From: a virus
IMG/VR virus record: IMGVR_UViG_3300007234_000093
Coordinates: 1-24,994 of that record
Length of the DNA stretch: 24,994 nucleotides
Strand: one strand, 5' to 3'
Shown piece by piece: positions 11,831 through 18,945 of this stretch (positions within the stretch are counted from its first letter, which is position 1; each line of letters starts with the position of its first letter). The position numbers were made by a program, and so were the translations under genes. The notes under the pieces were generated by a model. That model searched no databases, was not told the DNA's origin, and saw only the letters and a program-made list of their open reading frames with translations.

Positions 11831-12209
11831 GCCACTTTTCTGTTGCTAGGTAAGTGACCAACCCCCTTAATTATGCTGCTAGAGCAAAACCAGAAGGTGC
11901 AAAATTATCATTTGCATTTGTAGTTTTTGGCTGAATAACGTAGGCCAACACGGTGAACTCCACTCAACTATTCCGTCCGTCGATCCTAATTCGCCCCCAT
12001 CATAAACACACGAATAAGTAATGGTCCAAATCTATAACTTTTATATGGATTGCCACTATTAAATCTAAATTCACCCCATTGAAAAGGTGTTCCTTTAAAC
12101 CAACTTATCCAGTGCCAATCCCAATTCATATTTGATCCATGTGTTTATGGTGGAGGCGTCGGGAATCGCACCCGAGTCCGATCCGTCTTTATTTTGTTTC
12201 AACGTCCAC
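11831..12209 (-). ncRNA. ssrA: circularly permuted two-piece tmRNA (ssrA)
   Basis: tmRNA rescues stalled ribosomes and tags the nascent peptide for proteolysis. Here the halves are in permuted order. The acceptor piece comes first, ending at 12148 in a T-arm (TCGGG, loop TGCGATT, CCCGA), CGCCTCC, A and encoded CCA. About 150 nt later the coding piece starts at 11998 with GGGGGCG, then AATTAGGATCGACGG. GGGGGCG pairs with CGCCTCC over 7 bp, with G3-U70, the alanine identity pair. The tag frame (11915-11871) encodes ANDNFAPSGFALAA and a stop; tmRNA tags of this ANDN...ALAA type are alphaproteobacterial, not the ANxIVxFSRQxAPVAA type of marine cyanobacteria. A 7-bp stem (about 11857-11831) may mark the 3' end. 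Piece ends are approximate. Confidence 0.93.
11986..12129 (-). CDS. Trp-rich 47-aa ORF inside the permuted tmRNA spacer
   Basis: 47 codons lying between the CCA end of the acceptor piece (12148) and the 5' end of the coding piece (11998), and running 13 nt into the mature coding piece, where GGGGGCGAATTAG supplies its last codons (MGAN then TAG is partly this sequence). The protein starts MNWDWHWISWFKGTPFQWG and includes YRFGPLLIRVF, with five Trp and several Phe, which is not what random A+T-rich DNA gives. A weak GGAT lies about 6 nt upstream. If translated, the message is the tmRNA precursor itself. Function unknown. Confidence 0.6.
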   Translation of the reverse strand: MNWDWHWISWFKGTPFQWGEFRFNSGNPYKSYRFGPLLIRVFMMGAN

Positions 12210-16524: not shown

Positions 16525-16631
16525 TCTCTATCTGTTTGTTTCGATGTACAGCACCCGGCTAGCTTTCCATTCGGTACTAGCGACTCACCGACCATCCAAA
16601 AGCTGCAGACTAATGAATGGATTTTTCTATG
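16525..16631 (-). other. non-coding stretch between tRNA-Pro and terminator
   Basis: No ORF is supported. The RNA could fold: CCATTC near 16621-16616 can pair with GAATGG near 16574-16569, and GCTAG/CTAGC and CGGT/ACCG pairs lie inside. It may be part of a further small RNA or only trailer sequence. Confidence 0.35.
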
Positions 16632-16705
16632 TCTCGGTGAAGAGATTCGAACTCCTGACCCTTTGGTCCCAAACCAAATGCGCTACCAGACTGCGCTACA
16701 CCGAG
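16632..16705 (-). tRNA. tRNA-Pro (anticodon TGG)
   Basis: Acceptor CTCGGTG pairs with CACCGAG over all 7 bp; D-arm GCGC/GCGC; anticodon stem TTTGG/CCAAA around loop TTTGGGA; T-arm AGGAG-TTCGAAT-CTCTT. Unlike the other tRNAs of the window, no CCA is encoded (CAT follows the discriminator A). Reads CCN, mainly CCA. Confidence 0.95.
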
Positions 16706-16709
16706 TAGA

Positions 16710-16786
16710 TGGTGCCCTCAGAGAGACTCGAACTCCCGACCCCGAGATTACAAATCACGTGCTCTACCAATCTGAGCTATAAGGGC
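16710..16786 (-). tRNA. tRNA-Thr (anticodon TGT)
   Basis: Acceptor GCCCTTA with TGAGGGC (one G-U), D-arm GCTC/GAGC, anticodon stem CGTGA/TCTCG with one T-T mismatch around loop TTTGTAA, T-arm GGGAG-TTCGAGT-CTCTC, discriminator A and encoded CCA. It is 4 nt upstream of tRNA-Pro in the same transcript. Confidence 0.93.
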
Positions 16787-18682: not shown

Positions 18683-18769
18683 TGGTGCCCTCTGCCGGAC
18701 TCGAACCGGCACGCTCATATGAGCAAGAGATTTTAAGTCTCTGGTGTCTACCTATTCCACCAAGAGGGC
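18683..18769 (-). tRNA. tRNA-Leu (anticodon TAA)
   Basis: 87 nt, type II. Acceptor GCCCTCT/AGAGGGC, anticodon loop CTTAAAA on stem AGAGA/TCTCT, long variable arm TGCTC-ATAT-GAGCG, T-arm GCCGG-TTCGAGT-CCGGC, discriminator A, encoded CCA. Reads TTA and TTG, frequent in A+T-rich genes. Confidence 0.96.
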
Positions 18770-18781
18770 ATTTATTTTTTT

Positions 18782-18858
18782 TGGCGACCCCTGAAGGATT
18801 CGAACCCTCGACCTAGTGCTTAGAAGGCACTTGCTCTATCCTGCTGAGCTAAGGAGTC
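18782..18858 (-). tRNA. tRNA-Arg (anticodon TCT)
   Basis: Acceptor GACTCCT/AGGGGTC (one G-U), D-arm GCTC/GAGC, anticodon stem AGTGC/GCACT around CTTCTAA, T-arm GAGGG-TTCGAAT-CCTTC, discriminator G, encoded CCA. Reads AGA and AGG. Confidence 0.96.
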
Positions 18859-18868
18859 ATTTAAAATT

Positions 18869-18945
18869 TGGTGCTCCCACTTGGACTTGAACCAAGGACC
18901 AAAGCGTTATGAGCGCTCTGCTCTGACCAACTGAGCTACAGGAGC
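18869..18945 (-). tRNA. tRNA with anticodon CAT (Ile2 or elongator Met)
   Basis: Acceptor GCTCCTG/TGGGAGC, D-arm GCTC/GAGC, anticodon stem GAGCG/CGCTT around CTCATAA, T-arm CTTGG-TTCAAGT-CCAAG, discriminator A, encoded CCA. The body, especially CGCTTTGGTC and TTCAAGTCC, is closer to E. coli ileX (lysidine-modified, reads ATA) than to elongator tRNA-Met, so Ile2 is my preferred reading, which would suit an A+T-rich genome. Confidence 0.9.

Follow-up and report, generated by a model that had tools for sequence, protein, structure and literature searches.

The window analysed here is the complete 24,994-base virus record IMGVR_UViG_3300007234_000093. It carries on its minus strand, to which all features described below belong, a permuted pre-tmRNA gene (11871..12209), identified with Rfam and ARAGORN and made up of a 3′ acceptor/T-arm piece, an intervening segment (hereafter the spacer) and a 5′ piece with the tag frame. 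Covariance-model matches reach 121.9 bits for RF04321 (cut-off 47) and 108.2 bits for RF01849 (cut-off 50). The acceptor/T-arm piece (12148..12209, delimited from the Rfam alignment and the sequence) ends in an encoded CCA at 12150-12148; the 5′ piece begins with GGGGGCGAAUUAGGAUCGAC at G11998, which is the mature 5′ end. All seven bases of the acceptor stem pair with the 5′ piece, the third pair being a G-U of the G3-U70 type; alanine charging requires G-U at this position. The tag frame (11871..11915, from ARAGORN) reads ANDNFAPSGFALAA* and has the hydrophobic A-A ending. As far as its sequence tells, this alpha-type tmRNA gene is real and intact. The record also encodes two subunits of a T4-type topoisomerase, and five tRNA genes (Pro, Thr, Leu, Arg, Met) lie in two clusters (16631-16786 and 18683-18945) on the strand of the tmRNA. 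At another viral locus, L044:249-729, the tmRNA has an unusually long tag peptide of 20 residues (ANDNFKPELSFDFDGVLEAA).

The nested reading frame

Between the CCA end at 12148 and G11998 lies a spacer of 149 nt (11999..12147), delimited by sequence and spacer parsing and recognized through exchange tests as an exchangeable cassette. The original prediction, which gave its size as about 149 nt and placed in it a frame of 47 codons, proved exact on both counts: the frame lies at 12129..11986 and is translated as MNWDWHWISWFKGTPFQWGEFRFNSGNPYKSYRFGPLLIRVFMMGAN*. Its final codons (GGG GCG AAT TAG) come from the mature tmRNA 5′ piece, also as predicted, the UAG stop lying within that piece. We refer to the encoded protein and its relatives as the WDWHW family.

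The leader of this frame (12130..12147) consists of one arm of a helix, UAAACACAUG (12147-12138), followed by a ribosome-binding region, which reads GGAUC in the window and GAGGAUAUA in most relatives. Indeed, the ribosome site GAGGAUAUAAUG is retained in most WDWHW copies, that of the window being weaker (GGA), and a Shine–Dalgarno match of at least 4 nt precedes the start of the longest frame in 25 of 26 distinct tmRNA-embedded relatives. The 5′ helix arm also contains an AUG that opens a mini-ORF of three to four codons (12142-12127 in the window), whose stop overlaps the start of the nested ORF (AUGA or UAAUG); the same arrangement is seen at the equivalent place in L003, L006, L040 and L043 (loci are numbered with an L throughout), so that termination–reinitiation is possible.

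A frame of this length in one such spacer is by itself only slightly improbable by chance (shuffle p 0.027-0.047 for three relatives), and the case for a gene is therefore founded on conservation. Relatives were found in viral contigs at 49 loci by a first scan and at 63 with a profile; most are 77-100% identical, and nearly all are located between the CCA and the tmRNA 5′ piece. None of 33 distinct copies has an internal stop or a frameshift; in L100-type copies the start codon lies two codons later, and the stop marks seen in their alignment precede that start. Variable columns at codon positions 1, 2 and 3 number 15, 18 and 35 of 42, and for these 33 copies, drawn from metagenomic and partly redundant contigs, pN/pS is 0.21 and median dN/dS is 0.14, the latter a pairwise Nei–Gojobori median and not a tree-based estimate. 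Sought in related phages, the frame thus occurs at the same place and remains intact, with a ratio of about 0.14-0.21, and these data indicate that WDWHW is a genuine protein-coding gene under purifying selection. Conservation extends over residues 1-42, and the tail, encoded by the mature tmRNA, varies and is absent in several copies; in L035-L041, L044 and L048 the stop falls before the tmRNA. The loss of the frame from relatives that keep the tmRNA, which would speak against the original prediction, is found in part only: relatives bearing the ORF keep its frame, and many related tmRNAs either lack an ORF or carry another. Bacterial genomes searched with the WDWHW protein profile gave no match.

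The ORF and its relatives matched nothing in Pfam or PHROGs, and neither a group I intron (Rfam, window) nor an endonuclease motif (Pfam and PHROGs, protein) was detected. Matches obtained with tblastn against isolate phages and plasmids were at chance level (E about 1 or worse), those inspected lying inside larger proteins; weak matches to antibody frameworks among solved structures were judged meaningless. AlphaFold2 gave a low-confidence model (mean pLDDT 64) with three beta strands at residues 16-42, and the best Foldseek hit to viral models (E 0.44) was not interpretable. As the gene is optional, exchanged and selected, our guess would be an accessory protein of some infection stage.

A helix extending the acceptor stem

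The first 10-12 bases of the spacer form pairs with those immediately preceding UGAU and thereby extend the acceptor stem. In the window, the 3′ arm is CGUGUGUUUA (12003..12012), which encodes R-V-F and pairs with 12147-12138, as supported by covariation, register tests and the minimum-energy fold. Over the alignment, 85% of cells are paired versus 60% with partners shuffled, and every slid register scores lower. The same helix is found in bacterial permuted tmRNAs (76% paired versus 47% shuffled) and is therefore an ordinary feature of such genes. It is kept in long viral spacers (at least 98 nt, mostly ORF-bearing; 84% versus 59%). Subgroups of WDWHW show a double-sided change within codons, pair 5 going from C-G to G-C (GTG to GTC, both valine), and loci in which the Shine–Dalgarno motif comes first show a compensatory change at pair 9 (C-G/U-A). 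Since the helix persists where the spacer bears an ORF, its codons there showing compensatory changes, the bases of the arm are constrained both as codons and as part of a pre-tmRNA helix. In the minimum-energy fold of the window, the helix includes or adjoins the ribosome-binding bases, the unpaired probability of GGA being near 0; a ribosome-binding region placed within or next to paired RNA could make translation of the nested ORF weak.

Spacers in phages and bacteria

Alpha-type tmRNAs of viral contigs were gathered through matches to their 5′ piece, without regard to ORFs, the sample being the matches listed. Among these, 112 viral pre-tmRNAs could be parsed, with a median spacer of 72 nt and 30 spacers of at least 100 nt. 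When viral and bacterial genes were retrieved with an identical 20-mer, the median among the matches listed was 80 nt for viral spacers (n = 34; 13 of at least 100 nt) versus 34 nt for bacterial ones (n = 98; two of at least 100 nt), and neither of these two long bacterial spacers, the only ones of that size among the 98 listed, held a convincing ORF. The premise that this segment is normally short thus stands for bacteria but not for phages (median 72-80 nt), among the matches listed. About 20 long viral spacers (again among the matches listed) are filled by an ORF beginning right after the CCA, often with AAGGAG immediately behind it, and most of these ORFs exceed the length found in shuffled spacers. 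A scan for CCA followed by AAGGAG added at least 42 tmRNA-like loci, nearly all with such ORFs. Taken together, phage permuted-tmRNA spacers appear often to be enlarged, and in many marine phages to contain small-protein genes.

The spacer ORFs cluster into 18 groups, of which six have several members; the singletons L150, L453 and L475 are doubtful as ORFs. By this count, at least six and probably about 15 unrelated small-protein families would reside in phage spacers. The family MKNPLVREVSKWMF (MKNPLVREVSKWMFKAYIVWSICADITLLAGIIYLVFF), a 38-residue, transmembrane-like protein, has matches in 298 viral contigs; all 80 examined loci end at the tmRNA 5′ piece (71 by an automatic rule, nine by eye), median dN/dS is 0.09, and no relative was found among 50,697 phage records. 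Another family, known from 18 contigs and from isolates (median dN/dS 0.22), includes the ORF MFKWLSKTRLVVITRDYFRERNRKADAKIPKYLSGTRSVYD... inside the annotated SsrA of phage Melnitz, a cultured phage of a Methylophilales host (OM43 strain H5P1), where it starts at position 44844 of MZ577095.1; the Melnitz record carries no CDS annotation within the gene, only SsrA. In other families, a UGA immediately ahead of the mature 5′ end serves as the stop. In the ORF-blind set, among the matches listed, about nine frames stop at a UGA before the cut, seven at +13, two at +30 and five within the spacer. In spacers of the MKNPLV family (L171, L219, L374 and others), two starts overlap, a leader frame opened by AAAGGAG-(A/G)TG overlapping the start of the main ORF (GGGGATCAAGATGAAG), which suggests translational coupling or dual coding.

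Another large class of spacers, of 53-140 nt, is GC-richer, ORF-free and structured-looking, some with a T-arm-like hairpin; it includes L124, L126, L129, L131, L137, L140, L174, L203, L216, L232 and others in viral contigs, and L471-L473, L475, L477 and L480 in isolates. An Rfam search of these spacers (E up to 1) returned tmRNA only, a search in which overlaps within the same clan are hidden and a weak tRNA match can be masked. With ARAGORN at default settings no tRNA was found in phage spacers taken alone, and at its loosest settings matches were not more frequent in spacers (17 for 70) than in shuffles (59 for 350). These structured spacers are possibly an undescribed RNA class. Near the tmRNA of Brevundimonas phage Bajun (L475:1-147), an incomplete GOLLD RNA match, cut by the locus end, scores 50 bits against a curated cut-off of 150, and a glutamine riboswitch aptamer lies directly 3′ of two ORF-bearing phage tmRNAs (L191:1019-1072 and L474:1054-1102), as published for Melnitz.

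Exchange of spacer content

Several pairs of loci combine near-identical tmRNAs with different spacers. L046 and L155 are 99% identical over 200 nt of the tmRNA body and the next 600 nt, and have a 149-nt WDWHW cassette and a 7-nt spacer, respectively; L020 and L397, with tmRNA bodies 98% identical, carry WDWHW and the transmembrane-like ORF. The nearest ORF-less relative of the window (L189) is 96% identical in the 70 nt upstream and has a 70-nt non-coding spacer. Conversely, where spacers are identical at 95% or more (236 pairs), the upstream flanks fall below 70% identity in 133 cases. Because near-identical tmRNAs carry the WDWHW ORF, a different ORF or a mere 7 nt, the spacer behaves as an exchangeable cassette slot whose ORF is, on these comparisons, optional for the tmRNA.

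Mixed arrangements also occur. In L041, a structured-looking RNA comes after the WDWHW ORF in a single spacer, and L044 has two acceptor pieces, one preceding WDWHW and the other a different ORF. WDWHW lies just upstream of the tmRNA in L113, where the spacer itself is structured-looking, and in L108, where it is very short; similarly, the spacer protein of L170 is 55% identical to the product of the Melnitz gene immediately preceding ssrA. L028, L029, L030 (two copies) and L031 have WDWHW at a distance from any detected tmRNA, and the copies of L028, L029 and L031 are accompanied by possible remnants of tmRNA ends. The two copies of L030 (2187-2336 and 3001-3147) occupy ordinary gene positions flanking a thyX-like gene, and a 23-nt segment (GTGGAGGCATCGTCGCTATGAGC) is repeated there, before the thyX-like gene and before the second copy.

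Cargo or switch

We consider it probable (roughly 0.8) that the nested ORF is a genuine small phage gene carried as cargo in the disposable intervening segment of the tmRNA. The spacer would be transcribed together with the tmRNA and cut out during maturation into two pieces, such that inserted DNA would be harmless as long as both ends pair and extend the acceptor stem. Having a ribosome-binding site of its own directly behind the CCA, the cassette could be translated from the precursor or from the excised spacer. Cassettes are swapped between phages, the probable route being homologous recombination in the conserved acceptor and 5′-piece flanks.

The original prediction went further and proposed that translation and tmRNA maturation compete on the same precursor, as a possible switch. 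The geometry for such a conflict does exist: the 3′ arm of the acceptor-extending helix is made of the last codons, which in most copies also supply the mature 5′ end, and a conflict between translation and maturation on the precursor would follow. A regulated version, in which a ribosome on the ORF would melt the extended stem and block RNase P, and folding or processing would hide the start and remove the stop, so that protein and tmRNA become exclusive outputs, draws on the same features, namely a ribosome site in or next to the 5′ arm, last codons that are the 3′ arm, and a helix preserved by compensatory changes; moreover, as the stop of the window lies within the mature tmRNA, cleavage would leave a nonstop mRNA. 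However, the helix was not made for the ORF, being present in short spacers and in ORF-less bacteria (0.76 versus 0.47 shuffled), ORF-less tmRNA bodies are common, near-identical tmRNAs do with 7 nt, another ORF or a structured RNA, and WDWHW also lives outside the spacer (L028-L031, L108, L113). Stops fall before the cut, at the UAG of the tmRNA or inside the spacer, varying between and within families, and we accordingly rejected the production of a nonstop mRNA as a general design; likewise, the overlap with the mature 5′ end is not a conserved feature, since the tail is unconserved and some copies and families stop before the tmRNA. Such regulation is thus unlikely. It is with hardly less reserve that we mention a phage permuted tmRNA acting as a dual gene, in which the ribosome site would be located within or adjacent to the 5′ arm of the helix and the 3′ arm would contain the final codons, maturation and cargo translation being mutually exclusive for each molecule and timing the small phage protein. 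Cargo in a discarded segment explains more of the observations than a switch does.

Three further readings were weighed against cargo. The presence, absence and exchange of spacers on near-identical tmRNAs, together with copies outside tmRNA genes that show possible end remnants (L028, L031, L029) or come in twos (L030), would also be expected of a small mobile element with inverted ends, for which tmRNA acceptors are a harmless landing place and whose ORF aids its spread. Yet the inverted ends amount to the ordinary acceptor-stem extension seen also in bacterial permuted pre-tmRNAs, and we do not favour them as transposon ends; 38-47 residues are too few for known recombinases or homing nucleases, and unrelated ORFs occupy the same slot, all of which makes self-spreading improbable. 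Slightly more improbable still is a role of the nested proteins in ribosome rescue or on tmRNA itself as the reason for their location in or beside ssrA: two families do lie directly upstream of the tmRNA when outside it (WDWHW in L108 and L113, and the Melnitz relative of the L170 protein), but the proteins are mutually unrelated, one being transmembrane-like, and in L028-L031 WDWHW lies apart from any detected tmRNA. Finally, the ends of the spacer are under RNA-structure constraint and many phage spacers of 53-140 nt resemble structured non-coding RNA, so that a conserved spacer might work as RNA with the open frame a by-product. Against this stand the dN/dS values of three unrelated families (0.14, 0.22 and 0.09), the excess of third-position changes, the retention of start codon and ribosome site, and the encoding of the same protein in unrelated settings (L030, L108, L113); the RNA-only reading is strongly disfavoured and the least probable of all.

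Relation to known systems

Cargo in the spacer has partial parallels. Phage morons and other accessory genes are small, optional and horizontally exchanged, and have their own ribosome site. The nested ORFs resemble them in all these respects, but differ in lying within the precursor of a structural RNA and in sharing bases with its helix. As for the tmRNA itself, the two-piece tmRNA of Alphaproteobacteria (RF01849/RF04321) has the same gene order, acceptor/T-arm piece, encoded CCA, 5′ piece, tag frame and expected removal of the spacer, whereas the phage spacer is enlarged by a selected protein gene and the sampled bacterial ones, of about 34 nt, have none.

Methylophilales phage Melnitz is described as having ssrA (PMC9004378; MZ577095-MZ577098). 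This is likewise a phage-borne, alpha-type permuted tmRNA gene with a nested spacer ORF, found in the present analysis and belonging to a different family (MFKWLSKTRLVVITRDYF...KIPKYLSG); the passages of PMC9004378 that deal with the Melnitz tmRNA do not mention an ORF. Homing-endonuclease ORFs occur in group I introns of tmRNA genes (PMC11915505), and they too are protein genes in a removed segment; in the window, however, there is no intron, splicing or endonuclease, and the removed segment is the permutation spacer. Single cases of a tRNA-Ala gene or a repeat in the intervening sequence of a permuted tmRNA are also on record (PMC11915505), which are extra content in the same segment but not protein genes. 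In the open-access literature we found no report of protein genes in a permuted-tmRNA spacer, and novelty is claimed provisionally.

Because the stretch is annotated as tmRNA, annotators leave spacer proteins blank. A helix arm that doubles as codons would offer a clean test of whether the precursor of a structural RNA can also be an mRNA, and, as the cultured phage Melnitz carries a member, the idea of a nested ORF can be tested now. For phage tmRNA genes, a slot for small proteins would represent a further kind of content, besides introns and tags.
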